A DNA stretch of 57,094 bases from Planctomycetota bacterium (lineage in GTDB: Bacteria > Planctomycetota > Planctomycetia > Planctomycetales > Planctomycetaceae). Under the pieces are notes generated by a model. That model was given only the letters and a program-made list of their open reading frames with translations, was not told the DNA's origin and ran no database searches. The position numbers and the translations under genes were made by a program. Of this stretch, positions 31,203 to 44,471 are shown in pieces. Position 1 is the first letter of the stretch; each line of letters starts with the position of its first letter. Where the stretch lies: NCBI GenBank assembly GCA_003388505.1, contig QQVO01000031.1:1-57094 (forward strand), given 5' to 3'.

Positions 31203-31537
31203 CGGCGACAACGGCGAAGTCGCGGGCACATTTCTCGCTGACGATTCGGGAGACGTCGTTCCAGGCTGCCTCGGGACGACGTCGCGCAATCGGATTGGCG
31301 CTTTCCGGCGCGAAAATCCGGAATTTTTCCGGCCGCAGCAGGCTTCCCAAGTTTCGACGCCACTTGGAATTGCGCACCGGGTCCGTTGTGCGCCGGTCTC
31401 CAATGAACGTGCAGCGTGTTCCCGTCCGCGCGCAGAAGTGCGCACCGACCACGGGTCGTTATGAACGGCGAAGTGAGTGAGGCTCTTGGCGAATCATTGC
31501 CAGGGGGCACGGGGGGCGCGAATCCTTGGGGGGGCGA
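31203..31537. other. 335-nt gap at left edge of the virion cassette
   Basis: No gene is supported. A perfect 15-nt inverted repeat, CCGGAA-TTT-TTCCGG, at 31318-31332 could be a weak terminator after the DUF1501 gene. One open frame from ATG 31458 (MNGEVSEALGESL...) overlaps the protease gene in another frame and has no family resemblance. No attachment-site-like duplication, tRNA end or integrase remnant was seen. Confidence 0.5.
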
Positions 31538-32449
31538 ATGGACGAACTTGAAACGGTCGTCGAAGAGTGCGCGGATTGGCAAGCGGGGGTGGAGGTCGAG
31601 CGGCAGTCGAGACTGGTACGGAATGTGGCGCTGGTGGGGCGCGTCTCGCGGAACGGACACGAATACTCCGAAGAGGCGCTGCGATCTGCGGCCAGGCTGT
31701 ACGAGCGAAAGCCGGTGTTTCTTGATCATGCGGCCGACGCGCGGCGGCCGCAGGAACGGAGCACGCGGGATCTGGTGGGGTCGGTCGTGAACCCCCGGTT
31801 CTCCGAGGGACGGATTCGCGGCGACATCCGCGTGCTGGACACGGAGTCGGGACGGACGTTTCTGGCGCTGGCGGAATCGGACACACCGGGGGTCGGCATG
31901 TCGCACGTCGTTCTGGCCCGGCGGAACGGAGACGGGACTGCGGTGAACCGCATCGAGGACGTGATCTCGGTCGACGCGGTCGTCGGGCCGGCCACGACGA
32001 CGACTTTCCACGAATCGACGTCGAATGCCGACATCGATTCAGCCGACGGACCAGCGGCTGACGTCGCGGAGGAGATCGCCGAGTTGCGGGAAGCAGTCTC
32101 GCGCTTGAGCGCCGAACGGGACGAGTTGCTGGCGCGGCTGGCGGACCAGGAAGCGCTGGAGCGGTCGCGGCTCTTTCAGAACGAGTGGCAGACAACGGCG
32201 GAAGACCTGGGCCTGCCCGGATTCGCCGTGACCGGGGAGTTTCTGACTCAACTCGAAAACGCGGAGAGCGACGAATCGCGGCGTTCGCTGATCGCCGAAC
32301 GCGTGCAGTTGCTGCATCGCGCCGGTGCGGAACACCCCCGCAGCATCGAGCGAAACGGGGGACCGGGCGGAGGCAACACAGGCGAGGACGAGGAGTTTGT
32401 TGCGGCAGTGCGGGGATTTCGCGCGGCTGCGTCGGTTCTGGCGGGATAG
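31538..32449 (+). CDS. Phage prohead protease fused to scaffold
   Basis: A 303-aa protein. Residues about 30-165 resemble the phage prohead protease group (T4 gp21-like): ALVGRVSRNGHEYSEEALRS, then VFLDHAAD supplying the likely catalytic His, GVGMSHVVLA for the Ser, and VISVDAVVGPATTTTFHES, the family's closing VDVV.DPA.. pattern. Residues about 165-260 are coiled-coil-like (AEEIAELREAVSRLSAERDE) and look like the internal scaffold that is cleaved with the delta domain. ATG 31538 follows a G-run (31528-31534). It is the first gene of the cassette; head maturation inside the procapsid is its expected job. Confidence 0.75.
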   Translation: MDELETVVEECADWQAGVEVERQSRLVRNVALVGRVSRNGHEYSEEALRSAARLYERKPVFLDHAADARRPQERSTRDLVGSVVNPRFSEGRIRGDIRVLDTESGRTFLALAESDTPGVGMSHVVLARRNGDGTAVNRIEDVISVDAVVGPATTTTFHESTSNADIDSADGPAADVAEEIAELREAVSRLSAERDELLARLADQEALERSRLFQNEWQTTAEDLGLPGFAVTGEFLTQLENAESDESRRSLIAERVQLLHRAGAEHPRSIERNGGPGGGNTGEDEEFVAAVRGFRAAASVLAG

Positions 32450-32565
32450 TCGCCCGCTTGCGATTCGGCTTCGGCGGCGCTGAACAACGAGATGTGTGAA
32501 ACGGAGATCTTCCGGGTCCGCAGAGGGCGGGCCTGATCGGTCGACTCAATTTGTGAAGGAGCGCA

Positions 32566-33042
32566 ATGAACAGACTGCGATTTCGATCGGGACAGGTGCA
32601 GATGCGGAAGGTCCGCGTCGATTCGGCGACGGTCATCGAGGCGGGCGATCTGGTGTGGCTGGACGGGGACGATGCCAAGCCGGCTTCCGATTTCACGTGG
32701 ACGACCGATCTGGCGACGACACAGGCGGCGTTTGCGGCGAAGTTTCTGGGAGTGGCGCATCAGCAGTCGGCGGCGGGCGATGTCGATCCGATCTCGGTCG
32801 ATGTGAGCCCGCACAGCGTCTACGAGTTCGACGCCAACTCGGCGGCCTATGAAATCGGCGCGCCGCTGGGACCGGACGAACAGAGCAGCGCTCTGATGAA
32901 CCAGCAACTCGAAGCGGCCGCCGCTGCGAATGCGGTCGCGCGGGCCGCCGAGTCTACGCCCGGCGCTCAGGCGACGCTGCGGGTGACGATCGCTTCGGCC
33001 TACGCAACCGGCAGCGCGAACGTCAACGCCGCTCTCGGCTGA
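32566..33042 (+). CDS. Probable capsid decoration (cement) protein
   Basis: A 158-aa protein between protease and major capsid gene, the usual place for a decoration protein. The pattern ATVIEAGDLVWLDGDDAKPASDF and GAPLGPDEQSSA is typical of small trimeric beta-tulip decoration or cement proteins (DUF2190-like or gpD-like). An Ala-rich helix follows (QQLEAAAAANAVARAAE). It would bind outside the HK97-fold shell. ATG 32566 is preceded by AAGGAG (32558-32563). The assignment rests on position and general pattern. Confidence 0.65.
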   Translation: MNRLRFRSGQVQMRKVRVDSATVIEAGDLVWLDGDDAKPASDFTWTTDLATTQAAFAAKFLGVAHQQSAAGDVDPISVDVSPHSVYEFDANSAAYEIGAPLGPDEQSSALMNQQLEAAAAANAVARAAESTPGAQATLRVTIASAYATGSANVNAALG

Positions 33043-33107
33043 ACCAGTGCCAGTGGCACTTGTTCGTGGCGGCGTCTGGTCGCATTTTTGTCTTTGTTTA
33101 CGGCGTT

Positions 33108-33211
33108 TAGAGCAATTTGCTCTACCATGTGTCCGCGTCGAGCAGTGTTTGGACTGTCGAGGACGACAATCCGCGAGACAGATCGCCAACACTGATTTGC
33201 AAATCGCTATA
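33108..33211. repeat. 104-nt imperfect inverted-repeat element
   Basis: Between the decoration and capsid genes. The left end, TAGAGCAATTTGC, is matched at the right end in inverted orientation by TATAGCGATTTGC; inner segments (GTGTTTGGACTGTC versus GTGTTGGCGATCTGTC) also pair. The left end itself is a perfect 17-nt palindrome, TAGAGCAA-T-TTGCTCTA (33108-33124). The ends resemble those of the larger element at 37516 and 43764. It could be a degenerate MITE-like insertion, a terminator or an operator for the capsid gene. Confidence 0.45.
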
Positions 33212-33314
33212 ACGCCGCCAGAACCCCTTCGGTCGAATGAAACGCGGTCCCGGGAACGGCCCAACCGCGATTCTGCGGACTTGTTTTTCAACTGTCAGGA
33301 AGGACGAAACGAAT

Positions 33315-34511
33315 ATGCACGGGACCTCACTCCAGGCTCTGGTCGAATCTCACGGACCGGCCGGCTTCTATCGGAAAGTGTGCGAGCTGCTCAACGAGAA
33401 GAAACTGTCGGTGGACGACTTCTCGTACAACGAATTGGCGGACGCCTGCGGCGTCCTTCCGCGGCTGCGTTCGATGAGGGGATTCACGCCGCGGTCCGGT
33501 CCGCTCGGCGAAGTGCTGAGCGAGTCGAATCCGGGCGTGGGGACGAACCTGTTCCAGGTGGTGACGGGAGAACTGCTCGGCCGGAAAGTGATCGAGGGCT
33601 ATGAGGACGACGCCGGATTCATCGGGGACCAGTTGGTCATGGTCGTTCCCAGCCGGCTGCGCAACTCGAAGATCGCCGGCTTTCGGGCGCTGGCGGGACC
33701 GACCGAGGTGGCCGAGGGACATCCGTACGAGGAATCGACCTTCGAGGAGAAATACGTCACCACGGCGGAGAGCAAGCAGGGTCGGATTCTGAGCATCAGC
33801 GAAGAGTTGATCGCATTCGACCAGACGGGGGAGATCAACCGCCGCGCGATGGCGCTCGGATATTACCTGCGGCAGGAACGGGAGCGAACGATCGTCCGCG
33901 CGGTGACCGATGCGGACTCGGGAAGCGGGACGTACGTGTACCGTCCGAGCGGTTCGGGGGAGGCCCTGTATGCGAGCGACGGATCGCACCGCAACTACGT
34001 CGGATCGGGCAACACGACGTCACCCGGCTACGCCTCCGCCGTGCCGCTGGTCGACTGGACCGACATCGAAGAGGTGCTGCAGTACCGGGCGACGGAAGTA
34101 AAGGACGACCGCATCGACGGCGAGCAGCGGCCGATCGTCGCGCCGGCGCGGCAGATCCTCGTGCCGGAGGCGCTCCGCGGGACGGCGCGGAGCATCGCGC
34201 ACGCCACGGAGATCGACGTGGCAACCGCCGACGGCGAAATGCGGATGGCCAATCCGATCCACGGCCTGGTGGACGTGCTGTCTTCTCCGTTCATCGACGA
34301 ACAGGGGGGCGACGCGCTGACCGACTGGTATCTGGGCGACTTCCGGCGGCAGTTCGTGTGGACGGAGATCTGGCCGGTGCAGACTCTCTTGCAGCGGGCC
34401 GAGAGCGAAGCGGCCTTCGAGCGCGACGTCGTCCTGCGGGTGAAGGCCCGCTACTACGGCGGCATCAGCGCGGTGGACACGGCCTTCGTGACGAAAGTGG
34501 ACGGCGCCTGA
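33315..34511 (+). CDS. Major capsid protein (HK97 fold)
   Basis: A 398-aa shell protein. ATG 33315 has a clear ribosome site AGGAAGGA (33297-33304); an in-frame ATG at 33237 is rejected. Recognisable stretches are the capsid-typical NPGVGTNLFQVVTGELLGRKV early, TTAESKQGRILSISEELIAF in the middle (the region between E-loop and P-domain) and a C-terminal AFERDVVLRVKARYYGGISAV, seen in HK97-fold and Mu gpT-like coat proteins. It shares the base composition of its neighbours and is intact. It would assemble several hundred copies into the head, with the protease and decoration protein upstream. Confidence 0.8.
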   Translation: MHGTSLQALVESHGPAGFYRKVCELLNEKKLSVDDFSYNELADACGVLPRLRSMRGFTPRSGPLGEVLSESNPGVGTNLFQVVTGELLGRKVIEGYEDDAGFIGDQLVMVVPSRLRNSKIAGFRALAGPTEVAEGHPYEESTFEEKYVTTAESKQGRILSISEELIAFDQTGEINRRAMALGYYLRQERERTIVRAVTDADSGSGTYVYRPSGSGEALYASDGSHRNYVGSGNTTSPGYASAVPLVDWTDIEEVLQYRATEVKDDRIDGEQRPIVAPARQILVPEALRGTARSIAHATEIDVATADGEMRMANPIHGLVDVLSSPFIDEQGGDALTDWYLGDFRRQFVWTEIWPVQTLLQRAESEAAFERDVVLRVKARYYGGISAVDTAFVTKVDGA

Positions 34512-34596
34512 CAGTTGCCTTGTGCGAGCGGCGGCCGAACAACGCTCGGCCGGCCTACGCGAGCATCACCTCGCTTTGAACGAAAGTTTGTGAACC

Positions 34597-35127
34597 GTGA
34601 AGATCGCCGGACGGAACAACCTGAATGAGTTTCACGAGGTGTGCCGGCTGCCCCGGCCGAACGGCGAGGAGCTGGCGCTGACAATGCGTCCGCTGCCGCT
34701 CGGTTTCTCGCAGCGGTTGCGCCAGCGGGGAATTGCACCGCCGTCGCCGCCGCGGCGGGTGGCGCGGGATTCGTCGGGCCGGGCGATCCGCGACGAATCG
34801 GGCCTGGCGGTGATGGTCGCCGATGAGCAGGACGCGGAGTACGGCCTGGCGCTGGAAGCCTACCATCGCCGTGTGGCGGTGCTGGCGGTTGCCGAGTCGC
34901 TGCAGGCCGATGCTCAGATTGAGTTCGAATCCGGAGCACCGGATGGCAACGCCGGCTGGGAGGCGTACGCGGACTCGCTGTTCGCCGAGATGGAGGAGAG
35001 CGGCTTCACTGCAGGGGATCTGGTGCAGTTGTGCACGTTCGTGTGCCGGCTGAGCAATCTGACGGGCGAGCATCTCACGCAGGCCGCAGCGTCTTTTTCG
35101 TCGGTCATCCGGGAGGGGCCGGGATAG
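34597..35127 (+). CDS. Probable tail assembly chaperone (G-like)
   Basis: A 176-aa protein starting at GTG 34597. Features typical of tail assembly chaperones are the N-terminal NNLNEFHEVCRLPRPNGEELALTMRPLPLGF, a charged linker and a helical C-terminus (DLVQLCTFVCRLSNLTGEHL). They normally coat the tape measure protein during tail assembly. The reading frame just before its stop (35031-35127) is open in the -1 frame and leads into the next small gene, the arrangement used for G/GT frameshifting. It is placed right after the capsid gene, not just before the tape measure as in most phages. Confidence 0.55.
   Translation: MKIAGRNNLNEFHEVCRLPRPNGEELALTMRPLPLGFSQRLRQRGIAPPSPPRRVARDSSGRAIRDESGLAVMVADEQDAEYGLALEAYHRRVAVLAVAESLQADAQIEFESGAPDGNAGWEAYADSLFAEMEESGFTAGDLVQLCTFVCRLSNLTGEHLTQAAASFSSVIREGPG
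35092..35100 (+). promoter_or_regulatory. Candidate -1 ribosomal frameshift site
   Basis: Codons TCT TTT TCG contain five consecutive T residues (35094-35098). Slipping back by one keeps TTT in the P site and continues as TTC GTC GGT into the downstream frame, which stays open to 35303. The product would join 167 chaperone residues to 68 more. The A-site match is imperfect (TCG to TTC), so this is a hypothesis. Confidence 0.35.
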
Positions 35128-35144
35128 GCGCGGGGACTTCGGAG

Positions 35145-35303
35145 ATGCGGTCGTGCGATTACTTCGTGCTGAGAGCATGTGAGCGGCTGGGGGTGATGGA
35201 AGCCGACTTCATCAGGCTGCCGTATGCACAGCAGTTGAAGTATCTGGCATATGACCGGCTGCGAGCGGCCGAGGAATCGGTTGGAATCCCGATGATCGAA
35301 TGA
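35145..35303 (+). CDS. Small phage protein, possible chaperone T-domain
   Basis: A 52-aa reading frame from ATG 35145 (MRSCDYFVLRACERLGV) to a stop at 35301-35303. The region LPYAQQLKYLAYDRLRAAEE resembles the short T extensions of phage G/GT tail chaperones. The GGAG before ATG 35145 is directly adjacent (no spacer), and a GGGG at 35132 is weak, so independent initiation looks poor. Fusion to the upstream protein by -1 frameshifting is therefore attractive. If not, it is a tiny stand-alone protein of unknown role. Confidence 0.5.
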   Translation: MRSCDYFVLRACERLGVMEADFIRLPYAQQLKYLAYDRLRAAEESVGIPMIE

Positions 35304-35322
35304 GCCGGAACAAGGAAACGAC

Positions 35323-35598
35323 ATGAGCGACCTCGCAGACCTTTCAACCGTATCGGGAACCGATCTGACGGCCGGGCAGATCAAGGGCATCCTGGCCCAG
35401 ATCGACCTGGACATCACGAATCTGGTGCGGGACGGCAAACTGTCGGCGCTGAAGTACAGCGTGGGGGGAGCGGGCGGACAGCGGACCGACCGGGCGGCGA
35501 ACCTGAAGGCGCTGCTCGATGCGCGGGCCCACTATGAGCGACTGCTGGCGGCTCAGCCGGGCTGGGAGATTTCGCAAGCAACCTGTGAGTCCGATTAG
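35323..35598 (+). CDS. Small phage structural protein (gpW-like candidate)
   Basis: A 91-aa protein. The second half, DGKLSALKYSVGGAGGQRTDRAANLKALLDARAHYERLL, recalls small helical head-tail connector or gpW/DUF6148-type proteins, with a short beta hairpin followed by an amphipathic helix. Its position between the chaperone-like gene and the head-tail adaptor supports a role at the head-tail joint, but the family assignment is uncertain. The stop codon is TAG, followed by AGCGCG, like the ends of the repeat element at 37516. Confidence 0.5.
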   Translation: MSDLADLSTVSGTDLTAGQIKGILAQIDLDITNLVRDGKLSALKYSVGGAGGQRTDRAANLKALLDARAHYERLLAAQPGWEISQATCESD

Positions 35599-35636
35599 AG
35601 CGCGTCATTCACTCATACGAGGCAGGGAGAGACGGG

Positions 35637-35999
35637 ATGGAGATCGAATCAGGGATGATCGCCGCCGACCGGGATCAACTGTTCGCCGACTGGGGCGTTG
35701 AGGTCGTGTTGAGGGCCGTTGAACAGGCGTATGACCCGGAAGACGGTGCGATCGAAGAGACGCCGACCGACTTTGTCGTCACGGCGGTGACCGGCGGTGC
35801 GGCGAAACAGGCGGCGCAAGGGACGGCGGGGCAGCACGGGAAGATCGATGCGGTCTTTCTGATTCGGGGCGAGGACGTTCCGGAGGGGGTCGAATTGAGG
35901 ACCCGCCGGGTTGTGCAGGGCGGCGTTGAATATCGCGTGATGTCGACAGAGACGGACGCTGCGGAGGCGATCGTCACGCTGCACTGCCGGCTGATCTGA
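35637..35999 (+). CDS. Head-tail adaptor/stopper-like protein
   Basis: A 120-aa protein with mostly beta pattern: an N-terminal helix (DRDQLFADWGVEVVLRAV), a variable loop (ETPTDFVVTAVTGG), then GKIDAVFLIRGEDVPEGVELRT and GGVEYRVMSTETDAAEAIVTLHCRL. This resembles small-barrel head-closure or stopper proteins that sit under the portal. ATG 35637 is preceded by AGGGAGAG. The next gene begins 6 nt after its stop. Confidence 0.6.
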   Translation: MEIESGMIAADRDQLFADWGVEVVLRAVEQAYDPEDGAIEETPTDFVVTAVTGGAAKQAAQGTAGQHGKIDAVFLIRGEDVPEGVELRTRRVVQGGVEYRVMSTETDAAEAIVTLHCRLI

Positions 36000-36005
36000 G
36001 GACGA

Positions 36006-36485
36006 TTGCCGACATCGAAGATTACGGAGGACGACGCATTGTTCCGAATAGCAGTCGAGATCGACGATCGGGCGAGCGAACGGCTGGACGAACTCGCAGG
36101 TGAGGAACTGGACGACGCGCGACGGCAACTCGTGGACGACTCAATGACGACCGTTCTGGAAAGCGTCGTGCGGCTCAACCCGGTGGAGACGGGGCGGGCG
36201 CGGTCGGCGTGGGTCCGTGCGCTGAGAGAGGCCGGCGGAGAGGCGCCGGCGGGCTGGAGGGGGTCGCGTTCCCGGAGTGGTGCGGTTGCGGAGGGCGCGT
36301 CGCTGGGAGGACTGAGCAGGTCGGCGGGACGGTCGCGAGACGAGGTGAGTGCGACGAACTCTGTGAGCTACATCAGGTACCTCGAATACGGAACGTCAAA
36401 AATGCAGGCATTCGCGATGGTGCGGCGTTCGATCGCTCAGGCGGTCCCGCGGCTGAGAGAGGTGTTCTCGTTTCCACCGGAGTGA
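36006..36485 (+). CDS. HK97 gp10-like tail completion protein
   Basis: A 159-aa protein whose core RLNPVETGRARSAWV ... SVSYIRYLEYGTSKMQAFAMVRRSI is the HK97 gp10-like signature (NPV-TG-ar then Y..ylEyGTs.m.a...). These proteins sit in the neck between head completion and tail. The start is TTG 36006, chosen because a GAGG (35998-36001) lies at correct spacing right after the previous stop; no in-frame ATG exists before residue 47. A Gly/Ser/Arg-rich loop of about 35 residues (REAGGEAPAGWRGSRSRSG...) interrupts the domain. Confidence 0.72.
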   Translation: MPTSKITEDDALFRIAVEIDDRASERLDELAGEELDDARRQLVDDSMTTVLESVVRLNPVETGRARSAWVRALREAGGEAPAGWRGSRSRSGAVAEGASLGGLSRSAGRSRDEVSATNSVSYIRYLEYGTSKMQAFAMVRRSIAQAVPRLREVFSFPPE

Positions 36486-36513
36486 TCGCCGAACGCGGCG
36501 ATGGGAGTCGGAG

Positions 36514-36969
36514 ATGGTCACGGCTGAGGCGATCACGCGAAGCGTGCAGACATTCTGGGCGGCCGGTTTCTCGGCTTCGGCCACGGTCTATCCGGGGCAG
36601 CAGGCGGACACGTCGGCGCTGGAAGAGTGGGTCGAACTGTGGATCGAGTCGTGGGAAGAGGCGGTTCGGAGGGACGCGTCGCCGCACATTGTGCGCGTCA
36701 ATGTCACAGTGCACTGTTTCAGCCGTTCTGCGACGGCGGCGACACGGGTTCAAGAACTGGCGGACGCGGCGCGCGACGTCTTGGCGCGGCAAACGATCGT
36801 CATTCGAGACTATGACGAGAGTGGGACGCCGGTGCTGGGTCACGTGCGGCTGCGCGAGGCGGAGATGCACGACATGACGCGACCGCAGGGCGCCGAGCAC
36901 CGTGGCGTGTTGCGTCATGCGGTCGTTGCAATCAACGGGCGAGCCGAGTCGCTGGCCGAAGCGATCTGA
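36514..36969 (+). CDS. Tail terminator-like protein
   Basis: A 151-aa protein matching the position and general pattern of tail terminators: an N-terminal helix (AEAITRSVQTFWAAGF), YPGQQADTSALEEWVELWI, HIVRVNVTVHCFSRSATAATRVQELADAARDVL, then short beta strands. Such proteins cap the end of the tail tube and join it to the neck. It follows the gp10-like gene by 28 nt and precedes the tail tube gene by 38 nt, the usual order. Family call is by context and pattern. Confidence 0.6.
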   Translation: MVTAEAITRSVQTFWAAGFSASATVYPGQQADTSALEEWVELWIESWEEAVRRDASPHIVRVNVTVHCFSRSATAATRVQELADAARDVLARQTIVIRDYDESGTPVLGHVRLREAEMHDMTRPQGAEHRGVLRHAVVAINGRAESLAEAI

Positions 36970-37007
36970 GCGGCTCAAAGGGATCTTGACCAGGGAAGGG
37001 AAACAGC

Positions 37008-37517
37008 ATGGCTGTGTCGAATCTGACGCGGAATCTGAGAGACGGCGAACTGCGGATCAAAGACGGCACGTCCGGGACGCCGCAGTCGCTGACGGTGCTG
37101 CTGGATGAAGGAGACCTGCGGTGGGCGGTGCGGTCGAACACGATCGAGGTGAAAGACCGGGGTTCGATTACAGACGGGCACACGCGGAAGGGGGACGAAG
37201 AACCGGTGTCGCTGTCGTTTACGGTGAAGTGGACGCAGTTGATCGGAAAAGCGGGGAACCCGGCCGATCCGCTGCAGCTCTATGAGATGCTGATGTTCAC
37301 GTCGGGAGCGGACGTCGTGAGTACGTCGCCGGACGGTGAGCAGGAGACGCTGACGATGGAATTCACGGTGGTCGATCCGGCCGGAGTCGCAGGCGAGAAG
37401 ATCACGTTTTCGAAGGTGTATCGCGAATCGTTGACGATGACGGAAGGGGACGACGCGAACCTGATCGCGTTCAGCGGCCGGGCGTTCGAGACGGAGCCGC
37501 TGGTGGAGCGGGTGTAG
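37008..37517 (+). CDS. Tail tube (major tail) protein
   Basis: A 169-aa protein of all-beta character: LRIKDGTSGTPQSLTVLLDEGDLRWAV at the start, DRGSITDGHTRKGDEEPVSLSFTV in the middle and EFTVVDPAGVAGEKITFSKVYRESLTM near the end. These fit the tube fold of long-tailed phages. GGGAAGGG lies 9 nt before ATG 37008. The TAG stop is formed with the first bases of a repeat element that begins at 37516, so the gene end and the insertion coincide. Hexamers would stack along the tape measure. Confidence 0.72.
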   Translation: MAVSNLTRNLRDGELRIKDGTSGTPQSLTVLLDEGDLRWAVRSNTIEVKDRGSITDGHTRKGDEEPVSLSFTVKWTQLIGKAGNPADPLQLYEMLMFTSGADVVSTSPDGEQETLTMEFTVVDPAGVAGEKITFSKVYRESLTMTEGDDANLIAFSGRAFETEPLVERV

Positions 37518-37746
37518 AGCGCCTTGCAGAACTGTGTTTGTGCTGAGGGGGCAGGTTGGCTGGAGTTCGTCATCTCCGGCGAAGTGGCGGGTCGAGAGCC
37601 GAGAGTCAAGGGTCAAGGGACACGAATCGTTGACGTGTCGTTAGTCAGGTCTCTGGACTCTCAGCCCTCAGCTCATTTTCGGTCATGCATCCGCGAATCA
37701 AGAGCGGATCGTTCCCGGGACAACATACAAAACTGCAGAGCGCTCT
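37516..37746 (+). mobile_element. Repeat element copy 1 (MITE-like, 231 nt)
   Basis: Non-coding element with imperfect inverted ends AGAGCGCCTTGCAG and (inverted) AGAGCGCTCTGCAG. Its left 83 nt match the inverted copy at 43764-43958 with one visible mismatch, and its right 60 nt match with about five; the centre differs. Internal short repeats of the GAGAGTC/GACTCTC type occur. No transposase is present. It starts within the TAG stop codon of the tail tube gene. Confidence 0.75.
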
Positions 37747-37784
37747 GGCCGGCGCGGGTGTGCGTCGAGCATGGATCGGATGAT

Positions 37785-37811
37785 ACGGCCGGCTGACGCC
37801 GGGCGCTCGCC
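37785..37811 (+). repeat. Family F GC-rich repeat
   Basis: CGGCCGGCTGACGCCGGG followed by CGCTCGCC, imperfectly palindromic, between element copy 1 and the tape measure gene. A near-identical copy is at 50938-50964 and an inverted one at 54531-54557. Confidence 0.55.
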
Positions 37812-37850
37812 AGGGGACGTGGTGGGCACAACGAAGGTCGAGGAACTTCG

Positions 37851-38549
37851 ATGGCGTTTACGGAATCGTTGACGGTTCGGATTCTCGGGGACAGTTCGCA
37901 TCTCAAGAGTGAACTGGAGTCGGCGGCGTCCGATATTCGGAATCTGCAGACCAGCCTCAATCAGGCCGGTCAAGCGGGGGAGCAGATCGGCCAGGGCTTT
38001 GCGCGGGCCTCATCGGCGATGCGGCCGCTGCAGGAGATCAGCCGCATGCTCAGTCGGCTGACGACGCAGGCGGAGACCCTGGGACGGACGCCGATCCGGT
38101 TGAACGTGCAGCCGGCGCTGCAGGCGCTCGGCACGTTGAGCGGAGCGATCCAGGCGATTGCCGGCCAGTTGCGGGCGTTGTCGGCGATCCCGGTAGGAAT
38201 CGGTGCGGGGCCGATCGGCGGCGGGGGACCGATCCGCCGGTTCGCGGAGGGAGGGCTGGTGACCGGCCCGTCGGGGAGGGACGTCGTTCCTGCGCTGCTC
38301 TCGGCCGGAGAGTTCGTGATGAGCCGGCGGGCGACCGAGGCGCTGGGATCGCGGTTTCTGGAAGCAGTCAATTCGGCTCCAACCGCTCGGTCAGTGAGTC
38401 GCGGAACAGCGATGAGCCCTCCGCCCGCCCGAGTGACGACTAACAATTTCGGCGGCGTAACGATTCAAGTGGCGGATGGTTCGCAGGTGAACGGGATCGT
38501 GCGGGATCTGCGACTGCAAGGGGTGCATTTGAGGAACCGGCGGGGATAG
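37851..38549 (+). CDS. Short tape measure-like protein
   Basis: A 232-aa protein with an N-terminal helical part (SHLKSELESAASDIRNLQTSLNQAGQ), a central helix rich in Q and L, and the C-terminal block FAEGGLVTGPSGRDVVPALLSAGEFVMSRRATEALG, which is a hallmark of tape measure proteins. Typical tape measures have 600 to several thousand residues; at this size the tail would be very short. GAGGAAC precedes ATG 37851. No muramidase or peptidase domain is present. It follows the repeat element, so loss of an original longer copy is possible. Confidence 0.65.
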   Translation: MAFTESLTVRILGDSSHLKSELESAASDIRNLQTSLNQAGQAGEQIGQGFARASSAMRPLQEISRMLSRLTTQAETLGRTPIRLNVQPALQALGTLSGAIQAIAGQLRALSAIPVGIGAGPIGGGGPIRRFAEGGLVTGPSGRDVVPALLSAGEFVMSRRATEALGSRFLEAVNSAPTARSVSRGTAMSPPPARVTTNNFGGVTIQVADGSQVNGIVRDLRLQGVHLRNRRG

Positions 38550-38629
38550 GGCCGGGTTTCCCACGGGCTGCCTGGTGAGAAGGCGAGGTTCGAGGTCATG
38601 AATACACGCCGGCGGGAAGCGGTACGGGT

Positions 38630-38648
38630 CGCACGCTGGCAGCGTGCG
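38630..38648 (+). repeat. Family C palindrome
   Basis: CGCACGCTGGCAGCGTGCG, identical core to 21462, located 18 nt before the Dit-like gene within the virion cassette. Confidence 0.65.
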
Positions 38649-38665
38649 GTACGGGAGCGGGAGAG

Positions 38666-39112
38666 ATGTTGACATTCAAGCCTTGCATCTGGCGGGACGG
38701 TGCGCTGACGGAGTTGCCTCGGCCGGTGGACGTGGTGCGGGTGCAGGACAGTTGGGACTTCGCGCAGTTCAAGGTGCCGCTGGCATCGGGTGATGCTATC
38801 GAGGGGCGCTCGCTGAACGGGGTGGACATTTCGCTCGAAGGCCGCGTGGGACGGCAGGCGGGCGTGCTGACCGCCGACGAGGGCGACATGCTCGCCGCGC
38901 TCGATGCGCTGCGTGCGGCGCTCGGCGTGAGTGCGCCGGAAGACGAGTACGAACTGTTCCTGTATCACGATTCCAGTTCCGGGACGTACCGGTCGTTTCG
39001 AGAGTGCACGACGGTGCGGTTCGAGTACGACCTCTCCGCACCTCAACTCTTCAGTTATTCGGCGGTGATTCACGCCAGCGATCCGGCGATCTACACCGAC
39101 GCGCCGTCGTAA
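38666..39112 (+). CDS. Distal tail (Dit-like) protein
   Basis: A 148-aa protein following the tape measure gene. The N-terminal RVQDSWDFAQFKVPLASGDAIEG, then VDISLEGRVGRQAGVLT and the C-terminal YELFLYHDSSSGTYRSFRECTTVRFEYDLSAPQLFSYSAVIHASDP resemble siphophage distal tail and tail-component domains (galectin-lacking short form). It would form the hexameric ring between tube and tail hub. The family match is by general pattern and position. Confidence 0.62.
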   Translation: MLTFKPCIWRDGALTELPRPVDVVRVQDSWDFAQFKVPLASGDAIEGRSLNGVDISLEGRVGRQAGVLTADEGDMLAALDALRAALGVSAPEDEYELFLYHDSSSGTYRSFRECTTVRFEYDLSAPQLFSYSAVIHASDPAIYTDAPS

Positions 39113-39147
39113 GCAATCCGGCTGAGGCGTGGGACTTCAGAGAATTC

Positions 39148-40725
39148 ATGTTTGAGCGACGCATACTCCATCACGGGGAGACGCCGACTGGGCCGGCGGT
39201 CGACATTTCGCAGCGGGCCGCGGCAGGGTGCTGGTTCGAGCTGCTGCGGCAGGGGGGGTGCGGGGCCGGGCAGCTCGTGCTCAAGGACCGTTTTCCGGAC
39301 CGGGATGAGATCGAGATCGGCGACTGGATTTCGTTCGAATATGAAACCAGCGACCGCTGGTATCTGGGACGCGTGGAAGAGCGGTCGGCGGTCAGCCCGG
39401 CGGGCGTGTCGTTCCGGCTGGAAGGCATGGGCATCGAACTGAACGAAGTCTTTCCGGGCGGATTCTCCGTGGACGCGGAGGGGGTGCCGCCGCACCGCTT
39501 CGGGCGGACCGACCTGTTCAGCAACGATCCGGACTATCCGCTGGAGACGTTTGACTCCGCATCGGTCGCCGCAGACGTCGTGACTTTGCTTCTGCAACGC
39601 TACGTCACGCCTGCGACGCATATCGCCCACGATGCAGGATTGATTGAGTCGCCGCCCGATCCTGCGACGGTGGCCAGCCTGAAGTTCCGCGGCGAGGAGT
39701 CGGTGCGGTCGATCGTCAAGGAACTGGCGATGGTCGCGCGGGGCAGTTCCTGGGGGGTGAACGCGGAGGGCGTCTTCTTTTTCCTCCAGCAGCGGGAGGA
39801 GACTGCGTTGACGCTGCGCGAGGGACGGGACGTGACGCTGCTGGAGGAATCGCGGGACCGGGAGCATCTGTTCAACCGGGTGCTGCTGACAGGCGACTAC
39901 GTCTACGACGTGCGGAATTCATCCGGGATCATCGCGCGGCGCGCGTATCGATTCCGGGGCAACTTCGTGCAACCCGACAGCCGGGAACTGCACGGGGAGC
40001 GGCGGATCCGGATGTGGATTCCCTGGTTGCGGACACCCGAGGACTCGATCGCCTTCATCCGTGAGTTCTTCCGCATCTACTCGCAGCCGACGAGCCGCTA
40101 CCTCGTGGAGACCGACGGCCGCTCGGCGTTGCTGCAGCCCTGGTTGGGCCGCGTGCGGTTGGAAGACCGGGACGGCAACGAGATTGTCACGTCGCACGTG
40201 GAAGCGGTGCGGGTCGAATTCGACCGCGTCCCGCGGTTTCGGCTCGAACTGGGTTCCGGTGATCCGCGCACGCTCTGGCCCGAGCCTCCGGAGGACGAGC
40301 GCTGGGAACTGCCGGAAGCGCAAATCGCCGGCGGCAAGCTTTCGCTCACCGACGCGTCAAGTTCGGAAGACGGATCGTCGGCCGCGAGTTCGGAGAGTTC
40401 CGGATCGGAAGGGTCGGAAGCATCGTCGGGGTCGTCCGGGGTCTCGTCGGCCGGGGGCACGAGCAGTGCCGCGTCCTCTTCGGCGTTGAGTTCAGAGTCG
40501 TCTGAGGAGGCTGGGAGTTCTCTGTCGGAGGACGGTTCATCGGCTTCGAGCGAGACGGCGACGAGCAGTGCGGACCGGTCGTCGAGCGCGGTGAGTTCGA
40601 GCGCGCCGCCGGCAAGCAGCACCGGCGGCGCGCCGTCGTCGACCGGATGGAGCAGCGGCGGGCCGTTCAGTTCGGATGCGGGTACGTCGTGGTCGTCTTC
40701 GCTCGGCGAATCCTCGCTGAGCTGA
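39148..40725 (+). CDS. Tail hub/Tal-like protein with Ser-rich tail
   Basis: A 525-aa protein from ATG 39148. Residues 1-400 resemble tail hub (gp27/Tal, prophage tail endopeptidase-like N-terminal) proteins: IGDWISFEYETSDRWYLGRVEERSAV, SLKFRGEESVRSIVKELAMVARGSSWGVNAEG, ITSHVEAVRVEFDRVPRFRLELG. From about residue 405 to the end the protein is Ser-, Gly-, Glu- and Ala-rich, with many SS and SSE pairs and no predicted fold. This unusual end is followed by genes for sugar transfer, so it may be a glycosylated or adhesive fibre. No peptidase motif is visible. Confidence 0.62.
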   Translation: MFERRILHHGETPTGPAVDISQRAAAGCWFELLRQGGCGAGQLVLKDRFPDRDEIEIGDWISFEYETSDRWYLGRVEERSAVSPAGVSFRLEGMGIELNEVFPGGFSVDAEGVPPHRFGRTDLFSNDPDYPLETFDSASVAADVVTLLLQRYVTPATHIAHDAGLIESPPDPATVASLKFRGEESVRSIVKELAMVARGSSWGVNAEGVFFFLQQREETALTLREGRDVTLLEESRDREHLFNRVLLTGDYVYDVRNSSGIIARRAYRFRGNFVQPDSRELHGERRIRMWIPWLRTPEDSIAFIREFFRIYSQPTSRYLVETDGRSALLQPWLGRVRLEDRDGNEIVTSHVEAVRVEFDRVPRFRLELGSGDPRTLWPEPPEDERWELPEAQIAGGKLSLTDASSSEDGSSAASSESSGSEGSEASSGSSGVSSAGGTSSAASSSALSSESSEEAGSSLSEDGSSASSETATSSADRSSSAVSSSAPPASSTGGAPSSTGWSSGGPFSSDAGTSWSSSLGESSLS

Positions 40726-40762
40726 TCGACGGCCGTTGGGAGCGCGAACGGAGGGTCGCCGG

Positions 40763-41848
40763 TTGTACTATCGCATGCACACGGACGGCACACGGAGCGC
40801 TGCGGGGCTGGAGTCGTTCTTCGGCGGTCCGGCGCGAACGGCGTGCTGGATCATCGGCGGGGGACCGTCGCTGGCGAAACTGCCCTGCGATCTGATTGGG
40901 GCAACGCCGGCCGCGAAGTTCGCAGTGAACCTCGGCGGCAGTTCGCTGATCCGGCCGGACCTCTGGACCTCGTACGACCCCTCAGCGAGGTTTCACCGTT
41001 CGGTTTACCTTGACGCTTCAATCATCAAGTTCGTTCACGAGCGGCGGGCCATGGACCTTGTGCCCGAGACGACGTTCAAAGTCTGCGAGTGTCCGGGCAC
41101 GGTGTTCTTCGACCGGGACACAGAGCGGGGTTTCGCCGATCTCCTGAGTCCCTCGCAGCGGAAGGTGATCGACTGGAACGATTCGCTGCTGCAGGCGATC
41201 GACATCGCGTATCGGCTGGGGTTTCGCAGGCTGTACCTCGCCGGATGCGACATGCATGTCAGGCCGTCTCCCGAGCAGATGGCCCATGCAATGCAGGCGG
41301 GAGTCGAGTATGCGCGGCTGGAGACGCTCGAAGCGTTCTTTCGCCGCTGCGACGAGGCGGGTTGCTCGCGAGAGCGGCTGGCGGAAATGCAGTCGCCGTT
41401 GCAGTACCACTTCGACGAGCAGAAGAAGCTGGCCTCCGCCGTGCAGACCGACCTGCACTATTTCCGCGTCGTCCAGTACCTGCGGCTGGCGCGTCGCTCG
41501 CTGGCGCTGGCCGGGATGGACCTCGTGTCGGTCACGCCGGAAAGCCGCTTGAACGACCATTTCGAGCATCGCAGCGCGGAACAGGCGGCTGCGGAGATCT
41601 GCGCCGCCGTCGGGGATCCGGCTGCCGAATCGACACGGGGCCGTTATTCGCTGACGGCGGCGCGAACACCGGCGGGCATCGGTCCGATGCGGGACTTGAA
41701 GCCGCATCACTGGAAGAAATCGGGCGAGCGACCTGCGTCGAATCGGCCGCCGGGCGGAGAGGCGGAGGAGGCTCCCACTCTCCGGCGGGCTCCGAGGGGA
41801 TGGGACGAACTGCCGGCGGTCTGCGTCGATGTGCGGGAGGAGGGGTAA
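40763..41848 (+). CDS. DUF115/MptE-like protein of the tail module
   Basis: A 361-aa protein with a Rossmann-like DUF115 (6-hydroxymethylpterin-pyrophosphokinase MptE-like) region. The motifs are WIIGGGPSLAKLPCDL (residues about 29-44), FAVNLGGSSLIRPDLWTSYDPSARF and RRLYLAGCDMHVRP. DUF115 proteins act with surface glycosylation (for example Maf-type flagellin sugar transferases). I place the start at TTG 40763 because GAGG (40751-40754) has correct spacing; ATG 40775 is the alternative. Its stop overlaps the next start (TAATG). The C-terminal 60 residues are low-complexity. Confidence 0.7.
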   Translation: MYYRMHTDGTRSAAGLESFFGGPARTACWIIGGGPSLAKLPCDLIGATPAAKFAVNLGGSSLIRPDLWTSYDPSARFHRSVYLDASIIKFVHERRAMDLVPETTFKVCECPGTVFFDRDTERGFADLLSPSQRKVIDWNDSLLQAIDIAYRLGFRRLYLAGCDMHVRPSPEQMAHAMQAGVEYARLETLEAFFRRCDEAGCSRERLAEMQSPLQYHFDEQKKLASAVQTDLHYFRVVQYLRLARRSLALAGMDLVSVTPESRLNDHFEHRSAEQAAAEICAAVGDPAAESTRGRYSLTAARTPAGIGPMRDLKPHHWKKSGERPASNRPPGGEAEEAPTLRRAPRGWDELPAVCVDVREEG

Positions 41849-42573
41849 TGTTGGACGGAAAAACACCCGCTCTCACCGAGCGCGATTGCACGGTGGTGAT
41901 TCCGCAACACAACGAGGCGCACTTGACGGTGGAATGCGTCCGCTCGCTCAGGCGCGCGGAAGGAATGTCCTGCGACGTGCTGATCGTGGACGACGGGAGC
42001 GACTCCTCGCAAGTGCGGATCGTGCAGCGGGAACTGCCGGGGGAACGGGTGCTGACGCAACTGCACCGGGGAGTCACCGTGGCATGGAATCACGGCGCGC
42101 GGGCCGCGTCGTCGCGGTTTCTCGTCTTTCTGAACAACGACACGCTGTCGCGCGGTCCCTGGATCGACGACTTGCTTGCTCCGCTGCGAAGCGGCGAGGC
42201 CGTCATGACGGGCGTCTGCCGGCGGCGGGAGAGAGCGGTGGGACCGGAGTTGCTCGCGCGATTGCCGGCTCAGCAGTTTCTTGAAGGATGGTGCTTTGCG
42301 GCGGCGGCGAGCGATGTGGAACGCGCTCGCGGATTCGACGAGTCGCTACGGCTGTATTTCTCCGACACCGACGTGCAGTTGCGGCTGCTGGAAGAAGCGG
42401 GGCTGGGGGGCGAGGCGCTGCAGATCGCACGAGGACTGCCGTTGTCCCATGCGGGACATTGCAGCACGCGAATGTTGCCCGACAGGAGAAAGATCTGGCG
42501 ACGGGACCGTGAGCGGTTCATTGAGAAGTGGACCGCGCGGCTGAACGGCCAAGACAAGCTGGGGGCGGAATGA
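41848..42573 (+). CDS. Glycosyltransferase family 2
   Basis: A 241-aa GT2-type enzyme. DCTVVIPQHNEAHLTVECVRSL, then LIVDDGSDSS and FLVFLNNDTLSRGPWIDDL (the DXD-like nucleotide-sugar/Mn site) give the GT-A signature; FSDTDVQLRLLEEAGL is the acceptor-side motif. The start ATG 41848 overlaps the DUF115 stop, preceded by GGGAGGAGGGG. The stop overlaps the ATG of the next gene (ATGA). All three genes are therefore coupled to one message that also encodes tail proteins. Confidence 0.85.
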   Translation: MLDGKTPALTERDCTVVIPQHNEAHLTVECVRSLRRAEGMSCDVLIVDDGSDSSQVRIVQRELPGERVLTQLHRGVTVAWNHGARAASSRFLVFLNNDTLSRGPWIDDLLAPLRSGEAVMTGVCRRRERAVGPELLARLPAQQFLEGWCFAAAASDVERARGFDESLRLYFSDTDVQLRLLEEAGLGGEALQIARGLPLSHAGHCSTRMLPDRRKIWRRDRERFIEKWTARLNGQDKLGAE

Positions 42574-43529
42574 CGCGGCTGCTGCAGGTCTGCAACGTGG
42601 GCCGCATCCTGGGCGGGACGGCGGCCTGCGCCTGGACCGTGACGCGCGCGTTCCCGGACGTGGAGCATTCGGTGGCGTTTCTGTCTCGCGTGCGGCCCGA
42701 GACGGCGCGCGCATTCGCAGGCTGCCGGATCGAGGAATGGAAGTCGGTCACCGAGCGGGTGGCGGCGCGTCATCGGGCGGATCTCATCGTGCTGCACAAC
42801 GTCCATACCGACCGCTGCGAAGAGCTGCGTTCGGGTCGCGTCGTGCAGTACGTGCATTCACGGGGACGACGCGCCGCGGCCGATGCGACGGTCTATTGTT
42901 CGCGCTGGCTGGCGGAGGCCTGCGGGGCGGGCGCCGCCGGGCCGGTTCTGTATCAGGCGGCGCCGAAGCCTGTGCGTCCTTCGGATGGGGCGCGTCGCGC
43001 CCTGCGGGACGGCTTGATCGTCGGCCGCATCTGCACGCCGCATGCCCTGAAGTGGCCGGAGTCAATCGCCGGCTTCTACCGGCGACTGGCCGAGCGGCAC
43101 CCTGCCGTGATGTGGGAGTTCGTCGGTTGTCCCGCGGCGATCGAGCCTGCGCTCCGGGAGGCGTGTCGCGGACGGGCGAAGTTTCACCCGGCGGAATGGT
43201 CGGCCCGCAGCCGATTGTGGGAGTGGGACGCCATGCTGTATCACCATCCGCATGTGACCGAGTCGTTCGGTCGGACGGCGGCCGAGAGCATGCGGGCGGG
43301 GTGCATTCCGGTCGTCGACGCGCGCGGCGGATTCGTCGAACAGGTTTCGCCGGGCTGCGGGTTTCTGTGTGCGAGCGACGAGGAATTCGCCTCCGCACTG
43401 GAGCGGCTTGCCGACCGGGGCGAGCGATATCGCCTCTCGCGCGCGGCCATGGCGCACGCGGACCGGGAATTTTCTCTGGCGCGGTTTCGTAGGGAGTTTC
43501 TTCGCGTGGTGCGGAACAGACGCGACTGA
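42570..43529 (+). CDS. Glycosyltransferase family 4-like protein
   Basis: A 319-aa GT-B enzyme. The N-terminal half starts with TRLLQVCNVGRILGGTAACAW, and the C-terminal half contains LIVGRICTPHALKWPESI, YHHPHVTESFGRTAAESMRAGCIPVV (the GT4 E-rich EX7E-type donor-binding segment, ESFGRTAAESM) and GFVEQV. The start overlaps the GT2 stop by ATGA. It ends the cassette; a palindromic repeat follows 14 nt after the stop. With the DUF115 and GT2 genes it probably modifies a protein of the particle, by inference. Confidence 0.82.
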   Translation: MTRLLQVCNVGRILGGTAACAWTVTRAFPDVEHSVAFLSRVRPETARAFAGCRIEEWKSVTERVAARHRADLIVLHNVHTDRCEELRSGRVVQYVHSRGRRAAADATVYCSRWLAEACGAGAAGPVLYQAAPKPVRPSDGARRALRDGLIVGRICTPHALKWPESIAGFYRRLAERHPAVMWEFVGCPAAIEPALREACRGRAKFHPAEWSARSRLWEWDAMLYHHPHVTESFGRTAAESMRAGCIPVVDARGGFVEQVSPGCGFLCASDEEFASALERLADRGERYRLSRAAMAHADREFSLARFRREFLRVVRNRRD

Positions 43530-43570: not shown

Positions 43571-43648
43571 GCGGACGATGGATGTGCCGGAGATCGATTG
43601 GTGCGTCGGGACGCACGTGACGTCGCTAGTGGTTCATCGAGGCTGAGT

Positions 43649-43743
43649 TGACGGGTGCCACTGGCGTTCCGCCAGTGCGAACCAGAGAGGACGTCTACTC
43701 CGCGATGCACTGGCGGAACGCCAGTGGCACCCAACCCGTCAAT
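43649..43743. repeat. Double Family B inverted repeat
   Basis: Two arms of about 30 nt, starting TTGACGGGTGCCACTGG and ending in its inverse (CCAGTGGCACCCAACCCGTCAA), flank a 35-nt centre; each arm also holds its own palindrome CACTGGCGTTCCGCCAGTG. It is followed by element copy 2, so the gap is built almost wholly of repeats. Confidence 0.65.
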
Positions 43744-43763
43744 TCAGGATCGAACAACTACTC

Positions 43764-43958
43764 GAGCGCTCTGCAGTTCGGTATGTGGTCCCGGGAACGA
43801 TCTGTTCTTGATTCGCGGATGCAAGATCGCCAATAGCTATTAGCCAATAGCGACCTCTTGACTCTCGGCTCTCGACTCTCGACCCGCCACTTCGCCGGAG
43901 ATGACGAACTCCAGCCAACCTGCCCCCTCAGCACAAACACAGTTCTGCAAAGCGCTCT
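43764..43958 (-). mobile_element. Repeat element copy 2 (inverted)
   Basis: About 195 nt, the inverse of the element at 37516-37746 (see there). Its outer end, read on the minus strand, begins TTAGAGCGCTTTGCAG, and the TAG stop of the minus-strand lipoprotein gene falls in it. With copy 1 it brackets the tape measure through GT4 genes in inverted orientation. Its centre (GCCAATAGCTATTAGCC) differs from copy 1. Confidence 0.75.
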
Positions 43959-44385
43959 AATTGGCGGTCATCTCGACGTTGTACGAGTTCTCACCTTCGT
44001 TCAGTGTGACGGTCAGGCCGCTTTCCCCGGGATTCTGGTATTTCGGGGGAATGTCTTCCCGTGCTTCGGGCGGCACAAAGTCCTGATCTCCCTCTTCCCC
44101 GGCCACCGGTGTCTCAAAGCTTGGCATCACGCTGACCGCGTATTCTCCGACGGGAATCGGTTCGGTCACGGTGTAGCTGCCGTCAGAGCCGACTTCCGCG
44201 ACCGCCGACATTCCGGTCGACGTCGGGTCGAACTGGACTTTGGCGTTGGTGACGGGGGCGCCGTCGAATGTGACTTTGCCGCTGACGGTGGCGACCGGCG
44301 CCGCCGGTTCGCCGCACCCCAGCAGCAGCACCGTTCCGATGGCAAGGGTCAGTCGCGTTCTGCTGACCAGTTCGGCGATCCGCAT
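43957..44385 (-). CDS. Small lipoprotein with carboxypeptidase-regulatory-like domain
   Basis: A 142-aa lipoprotein. ATG 44385 has GGAG (44394-44397) at good spacing; TTG codons just upstream are not needed. The signal ends at the lipobox LLLGC. The rest, VSGKVTFDGAPVTNAKVQFDPTSTG and GSYTVTEPIPVGEYAVSVMP, is a carboxypeptidase regulatory-like (transthyretin-type) beta-sandwich. Such proteins regularly follow DUF1559 genes in planctomycetes, as here. Envelope or pilus-associated role inferred. Its TAG stop lies in the end of repeat copy 2. Confidence 0.8.
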   Translation of the reverse strand: MRIAELVSRTRLTLAIGTVLLLGCGEPAAPVATVSGKVTFDGAPVTNAKVQFDPTSTGMSAVAEVGSDGSYTVTEPIPVGEYAVSVMPSFETPVAGEEGDQDFVPPEAREDIPPKYQNPGESGLTVTLNEGENSYNVEMTAN

Positions 44386-44471
44386 CAACAAACTCCGGTT
44401 GAATGACTATCAGAAAGAGGGAAGTCCGGCAAACATGGACCGGACTCCCCCTGAAAAAGCGAGTGAGAGAA

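Follow-up and report, generated by a model that had tools for sequence, protein, structure and literature searches.

The 57,094-nucleotide stretch of planctomycete DNA analysed here (assembly GCA_003388505.1, contig QQVO01000031.1; hereafter the window) carries a phage-like head-tail cassette on its plus strand. Protease/scaffold, decoration, capsid, connector, tube, short tape measure and tail hub genes occupy positions 31538-40725, and three non-structural glycosyltransferase-like genes at 40736-43529 close the row (Table 1). A preliminary description had seen genes running in one direction in the order of phage morphogenesis, and they are found where it placed them, with profile support for most. 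Its capsid-to-tail-tip set, drawn as far as 43529, is structural up to 40725 and glycosyltransferase-like in the last three genes. The first of these, the MptE-like (PF01973) gene, may encode a glycosyltransferase; it accompanies most tail modules in the family, including detached ones.

Table 1. Features of the cassette and its borders, in window positions
Feature	Position	Strand	Basis or remark
One-mismatch bipartite motif (GCGCACC, then ATGAAC)	31440..31466	+	5' of first cassette gene
Prohead protease with scaffold-like C-terminal region	31538..32449	+	Putative function; phrog_2229 weak, 0.0077
Decoration (cement) protein	32566..33042	+	PF09956 9.6e-5, just under its cut-off; family-conserved
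Major capsid protein	33309..34511	+	PF25209 6.9e-19
Conserved p176, possible tail assembly chaperone	34597..35127	+	No Pfam or PHROG family match
Conserved 91-residue cassette protein	35323..35598	+	Conservation
Head closure Hc1	35637..35999	+	phrog_161 6.4e-7
Neck / tail completion protein	36006..36485	+	phrog_169 3.8e-9
Tail terminator	36514..36969	+	phrog_179 0.0012, weak
Tail tube protein	37008..37517	+	Position; weak fold support
Short tape measure protein, 232 residues	37851..38549	+	phrog_25241 4e-7
Dit-position protein	38666..39112	+	Position and conservation
Tail hub (Tal) with Ser-rich C-terminal extension	39142..40725	+	Fold; start codon putative
MptE-like protein, candidate glycosyltransferase	40736..41848	+	PF01973 2.3e-4, below cut-off
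Family-2 glycosyltransferase	41848..42573	+	PF00535 6.4e-17
Group-1 glycosyltransferase	42528..43529	+	PF00534 4e-7
Palindromic repeat 3' of cassette	43628..43762		Relatives just 3' of TerL (C14) and portal (C25)

Residues His59, Ser117 and Asp141 of the protease, which we read as its triad, are invariant in all 19 aligned rows. Neither Pfam nor PHROG returned a match for Dit, Tal or the tube within the limits applied. For the tube the structure model is of low quality (pLDDT 53); its first fold matches are to tail tubes, with no match reaching E <= 0.001. The hub core model (pLDDT 90) resembles hubs of the gp27/gp44/VgrG type, with a best chain at E 1.2e-16 in Foldseek and a best chain at Z 23.4 over 303 aligned residues and 3.0 Å in VIA-align. 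Beyond this core the window's hub carries a C-terminal extension that is 37% serine over 156 residues. Where such an extension exists in the family, serine, threonine and glycine make up 28-60% of it; at locus L116 it is 7 residues long. The tape measure has a median length of 236 residues over 26 family open reading frames (ORFs), duplicates included.

The flanking genes scanned are ordinary ones. Flanking ORFs of the window, together with those beside two contiguous cassettes of related genomes (G001, G013), encode, among others, argininosuccinate synthase, RibD, DUF1501, DNA ligase and response regulators, 4 of the 20 being without a match, and none of these 20 (10 from the window, 10 from the relatives) has an integrase or lysin match in Pfam. 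Neither function appears among the conserved cassette families, which cover part of the genes and gaps. Terminase, portal, integrase and lysin were likewise absent from the 28 window proteins scanned, a part of the window's genes that includes the 10 flanking ORFs. Ordinary genes had been described as starting within 350 nt on both sides; this holds for the 5' side, where a DUF1501 gene ends 335 nt before 31538, and not for the 3' side, where the next gene (43957-44391, minus strand) lies 427 nt away. The host-like base composition is borne out, the cassette having 65.3% GC against 63.4 and 62.7% in the DNA on either side, and so are the host-type repeats: repeats with copies elsewhere in the genome occur both within and beside the cassette. 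One of 104 bp separates decoration and capsid genes (33109-33212; a 94% copy lies on contig C14), and one of 230 bp lies between tube and tape measure (37515-37745), with an inverted 77% copy past the cassette (43764-43959).

The packaging genes are present in the same genome, on other contigs. Contig C14 holds an operon-like row of a helix-turn-helix (HTH) gene with a weak sigma-70 region 4 match, a ParB-like gene (ParB_N 1.3e-4, below cut-off), an ABC ATPase, a GNAT gene, the small terminase subunit TerS (phrog_4044 1.9e-5) and the large subunit TerL (PF03354). A lone portal gene of the lambda family (PF05136, 2.6e-33) stands amid ordinary genes on contig C25; a search of this genome for a PF04860 portal found nothing. 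The preliminary description had noted packaging genes as missing and proposed a search elsewhere in the genome. They are indeed not among the flanking proteins scanned, and no terminase, portal or integrase lies directly beyond the cassette in that set, but both terminase and portal exist at a distance. The nearest contig end is ~17 kb from TerL and ~37 kb from the portal, too far for a simple contig break to account for the split. We also rejected misassembly, the modules lying ~14-37 kb from the ends of C42, C14 and C25 and the single-contig genomes G004, G007, G018 and G033 being split likewise. Across the family, TerS adjoins TerL in all 20 distinct packaging loci and the ParB-like gene is present in 15 of them. 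The residues of the assigned TerL motifs are invariant in 21 of 21 rows, and those of the last motif in 20 of 20 rows, with one glycine there at 90%. Among solved structures, sequence searches found nothing related to TerL; the capsid search gave a single ribosomal-protein row at E 0.28.

The capsid, TerL and portal genes occur together within Planctomycetaceae. In a family sample of 37 genomes, one per genus and including the window's own, strong matches were found for capsid in 21, TerL in 22, portal in 21 and all three in 20. Capsid and TerL are both present in 20, capsid alone in 1, TerL alone in 2 and neither in 14 (Fisher 2.7e-7), and TerL and portal also co-occur (Fisher 1.7e-9). Capsid identity to that of the window is 61-78% in an alignment of 18, with one partial match at 82%. 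In an even sample of the phylum, 15 of the 27 family genomes have a capsid match above 600 bits and the 365 others have none (best 265 bits); within the family, the 9 genomes of genus g56 yield a single weak match. Among named genomes a capsid scan found 31 loci, of which 30 carry planctomycete names and one is titled only 'bacterium'; the carriers include two isolates of the family, Thalassoglobus neptunius and Alienimonas chondri. It is through these relatives that the window is assigned to the family.

Phage databases hold little of this set. Among 50,697 phage records the capsid has no match, TerL one partial match (28.6%, covering one third of its length) and the portal distant matches in 44, of which the ten listed are at 23-25% identity. 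In IMG/VR the capsid occurs on one contig only (L163), which lies wholly within the cassette; its capsid shares 98.7% identity with the one in host genome G024. These results, no capsid relative in phage records and a sole IMG/VR contig that matches a host cassette, speak against an ordinary prophage. Distant capsid relatives (27-34% identity) were seen in other planctomycete families at L225 (G045), L229 (G049), L233 (G040) and L230 (G408). The first of these genomes has an ATPase, TerS, portal, protease, decoration protein and capsid, and its TerL matches a different profile (phrog_38); the second has a tail-sheath-like protein.

The set appears to have been inherited with the host. It comprises HTH, ParB-like, ABC ATPase, GNAT, TerS, TerL and portal genes, the genes from protease through hub, and the glycosyltransferases. 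The preliminary description had asked for a conserved syntenic cassette in relatives, as opposed to one present in a single strain; the set is conserved across genera, often beside one particular ThiF-family gene. Of the 20 distinct packaging loci, 11 have this gene in divergent orientation next to the packaging module, whether the set is contiguous or split, and some of the nine remaining loci are on contigs that end upstream; a DUF374-type gene lies beyond the opposite end in G001, G013 and G035. The tree built from capsid, portal and TerL has 7 of 13 splits in common with that of RpoB, against a maximum of 3 in 5000 label permutations. Mantel correlations with RpoB are 0.536 for capsid and 0.515 for portal (each 0 of 2000 permutations as high), third-position GC follows that of RpoB with r 0.94-0.97, and mean capsid identity over 16 genomes is 72% against 77% for RpoB.

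Ratios of nonsynonymous to synonymous substitution (dN/dS), computed for close pairs that do not include the window's genome and with high-divergence rows left out, indicate purifying selection, with values mostly under 0.3. They range over 0-0.244 for L142/L163 (19 genes), 0-0.320 for L153/L154 (15 genes) and 0-0.27 for L077/L158 (8 genes, one undefined), the capsid being at 0.024-0.050 in all three. A fourth close pair, L075/L157, gave 0.167 for capsid and 0.470 for decoration.

The arrangement of the set varies between genera, from near-contiguous to two to four places, and the cuts fall mainly at the same borders. Contiguous, nearly complete rows of ~18-22 kb are found in G001, G013, G024 and L132, with the family-2 glycosyltransferase undetected in G013 and L132 and the neck gene undetected in L132. 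TerL is separated from the portal in G003, G025, G033 and G035, the portal from the protease in G007 and G018, and both cuts occur in G000 and G027; in G004 and G011 the capsid is in addition separated from the tail. In draft genomes a split across contigs may be an assembly effect. Of the six capsid carriers assembled as single contigs, two are contiguous (G001, G013) and four are split: G018 into two places 459 kb apart, G033 into two 42 kb apart, G007 into two 24 kb apart with no tail found, and G004 into four. In the last genome the capsid lies at 0.11, TerL at 3.51, the portal at 3.69 and the tail, on the other strand, at 3.71 Mb. Its head and tail modules are thus 3.6 Mb apart in coordinates and at least 2.7 Mb if the chromosome is circular, too far for any single packaged piece to hold both.

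The modules share an upstream element. A first Gibbs run upstream of the HTH gene found only the start codon; once coding sequence was excluded, the search yielded a motif around TGTTGCGC. In modules outside the discovery set, copies with at most one mismatch precede 15 of 15 portal-first modules (2.75 in shuffles) and 8 of 10 protease-first modules (1.83 in shuffles). The coding-strand core, GCGCAAC, occurs on either strand within 250 bp upstream of the portal in 23 of 27 cases, of the protease in 24 of 37 and of the HTH gene in 10 of 16, together 57 of 80, against 18 of 448 for 20 other gene families. The portal and protease counts include genomes in which these genes are not detached, and both members of the close pairs L077/L239, L153/L154 and L068/L163 are counted; 11 loci whose DNA is counted under another locus, out-of-family loci and upstream stretches below 200 nt are omitted. 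Upstream of p176 the core is found in 2 of 25 cases, both of them detached tail modules (G004 and G011, the two that were read). When 54 sites were aligned by GCGCAAC alone, a second box, T[GT][AG]A, emerged 14 bp past the core at near-fixed spacing, with T at +21 in 42 of 54 sites and A or G at +23 in all 54. In the window's genome the motif is exact ahead of the HTH and portal genes. Such a bipartite element may be promoter- or operator-like.

A palindromic repeat family also attends the modules of this genome, lying 16-99 bp past the 3' ends of all three; the copies outside the window are at L002 18322-18449 (C14) and L112 8733-8839 (C25). It occupies at least 40 genomic places (117 candidates, 40 scored) and may function either as a terminator or as a substrate when modules disperse.

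We think it probable that these genes, from which alone the particle is known here, specify a vertically inherited, dispersed and probably co-regulated particle resembling a gene transfer agent (GTA). This agrees with the earlier suggestion of a domesticated particle, which named a GTA, a protein-delivery particle and a remnant with packaging genes elsewhere as options, and is supported by the genes on C14 and C25, the conservation across genera and the purifying selection. In our model an ancestor of the family would have acquired a tailed phage whose portal was of the lambda family, probably beside the ThiF-family gene, and the set would since have been passed down with the host. A host regulator would turn the modules on together, the capsid would form, and TerS, TerL and portal would load chromosomal DNA. 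The short tail, ~35 nm by the rule of thumb relating tape-measure residues to tail length if a tape measure of ~235 residues is helical, would carry the hub; the adjoining glycosyltransferases may O-glycosylate its Ser/Thr/Gly-rich extension, which may bind recipients. The position of the extension beside these genes suggests, as a hypothesis, a glycosylated tail tip. The producer would be lysed by host genes outside the set found. Where the modules are widely separated, no single packaged piece can contain them all; there the particle would be unable to propagate its whole set, and selection must act on the host.

A number of observations weigh against this interpretation. The system is dispensable, a strong capsid match being missing from 16 of the 37 family genomes, and among 16 genomes a recognisable hub is absent by profile search from seven (G007, G015, G017, G021, G022, G028 and G036, the last 78% complete). 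Three of these loci, L114 (G015), L075 (G007) and L127 (G022), have head genes with no recognisable hub genome-wide, and in G015 and G007 ordinary-looking genes follow the capsid. In G025 (L080) and G035 (L078) p176, neck, tube and tape measure are jointly undetected in the tail clusters, which retain Hc1, terminator, Dit and hub; no tube match was found anywhere in either genome. A tube-less particle is possible there, and these losses sit badly with one fixed delivery machine. Decay is evident in G023, where a remnant beside the ThiF gene (L242) consists of HTH, a cut ParB, the capsid C-terminus, p176, hub, MptE and glycosyltransferases, and in G020, where the capsid frame is broken. Usual module borders are departed from in G161, with HTH and ParB beside head genes, and in G012, where the portal precedes the TerL piece. 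The pieces of G007 and G033 could be near enough for one large head. TerL agrees least with RpoB (Mantel 0.356; 31 of 2000 permutations as high), and the motif and synteny counts treat related species and congeners separately. A lysis gene was not found among the scanned ORFs and conserved families, which comprise part of the genes, and the roles of tube, Dit and p176 are assigned from position or weak evidence. Some 4 kb from the lone portal lies an ORF (L112 14348-16084, C25) that looks serine-recombinase-like by eye.

The motif has its own weaknesses. Exact GCGCAAC is absent ahead of the window's cassette, which holds the element only with one mismatch, and two further one-mismatch copies lie nearby at 31284 and 31372; the copy at 31440 is therefore weak evidence when taken alone. 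Genome-wide, the bipartite pattern gave 99 matches against 85 for a reversed control in nine genomes in total and, in G161, 104 against 9, swamped by a repeat, so that the motif alone is not specific. As a scan for more regulon members across these ten genomes the pattern was uninformative and was set aside. The G161 repeat begins GCGCAACC, mostly ends TGGA and has ~100 copies genome-wide.

Other readings share parts of this evidence. A host-domesticated particle that packs DNA and kills, or is released, without delivering it, as a weapon or self-sacrifice on the model of PBSX of Bacillus, is in our view unlikely. The conserved TerL residues and the persistence of lineages with no recognisable hub, or no tube, fit such a particle, and hub extension and glycosyltransferases could serve target recognition, but hub and tail are conserved in the remaining carriers and no toxin-family match was found among the cassette proteins scanned. 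Protein or effector delivery by capsid or tail without DNA, one of the options of the preliminary description, gains from the three non-structural glycosyltransferase-like genes that end the cassette and from genera that separate head from tail. Against it, DNA packaging is argued by the conservation of TerL, TerS and portal with the capsid, and the conserved TerL residues likewise favour packaging of DNA; we hold protein delivery to be very improbable.

Slightly less weight still falls on a helper particle whose cargo is another mobile element of satellite or plasmid type, in place of random host DNA, recognised by TerS, the ParB-like protein and the HTH protein. Its appeal lies in the constancy of TerS, and the frequency of the ParB-like gene, beside TerL, but no partner element was seen and the genome-wide motif pattern, a weak test, revealed none. 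Slightest of all is the prospect of a decaying prophage, the functionless remnants of one or several ancient integrations. The G023 remnant, the broken frame in G020 and the genomes with no strong capsid match speak for it, yet for most carriers it is largely refuted by dN/dS well below 1 in close pairs, invariant TerL residues, the retention of modules despite their dispersal and the motif at module borders.

Returning to the GTA-like particle, we lean slightly towards an independent, family-wide GTA lineage of Planctomycetota that the host has cut into modules each bearing the same bipartite element, tails included where detached, and that some genera are reshaping, into tails lacking tube and tape measure or sets of head genes only, while keeping capsid, portal and terminase. 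If this is true, it would add another phylum in which bacteria made a phage into heritable DNA-exchange machinery. The natural split and intact layouts, common cis-element and reduced variants offer a ready means of testing how a virus turns into a regulon dispersed in its host, and the two named capsid-bearing isolates make the system testable.

Few GTA systems have been studied, mostly alphaproteobacterial (as summarised in PMC12946183). Among the literature matches listed, considered by titles and abstract openings and with subscription papers mostly outside their scope, none reports a GTA in Planctomycetota. The nearest mention in the passages cited here concerns a prophage predicted in the planctomycete Zavarzinella formosa, with a TerL close to RcGTA-like TerLs (PMC7947584); a deep-sea planctomycete that releases a chronic phage is reported as such (PMC10945688). 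The definition of Kogay et al. (PMC9662315) names six features of GTAs: tailed particles of caudoviricete origin, packaging of mostly random host DNA, endogenisation, often at multiple loci, a genome of their own that the small head cannot fully package, vertical inheritance and delivery to cells. Three of them are found here, namely proteins derived from tailed phages (by homology), endogenisation at several loci and vertical inheritance, for which TerL is the weakest witness. On packaging of the own genome, the head and tail modules of G004 are too distant for one piece, but the contiguous rows of other genomes cover no more than ~18-22 kb. Lambda-family portal phages have the portal family PF05136 in common with the planctomycete set, with no capsid match and one partial TerL match. 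PBSX is a single chromosomal cluster and is not known to transfer genes, whereas the planctomycete set is often dispersed and spans genera. PBSX-like defective Bacillus prophages are described as packaging host DNA in 13.4 kb pieces (PMC12946183). BaGTA of Bartonella and BhGTA of Brachyspira, compared by description, are independently exapted GTAs of other hosts (PMC9662315). FpGTA of Faecalibacterium is likewise a GTA-like element outside Alphaproteobacteria, described as podovirus-like (PMC12946183), whereas the present particle would be mostly siphophage-like, though in the G025 and G035 clusters no tube or tape measure was found. The closest likeness, drawn from descriptions, is to RcGTA (Rhodogtaviriformidae), in phage-derived head-tail genes at several chromosomal places, vertical inheritance and co-diversification with the host. 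Both systems have a short tape measure, and they differ in host phylum. RcGTA is spread over five loci (PMC9662315, PMC7947584), of which the largest is one 17-gene head-tail cluster (PMC7947584), whereas in Planctomycetaceae head, tail, portal and packaging genes are all separable.

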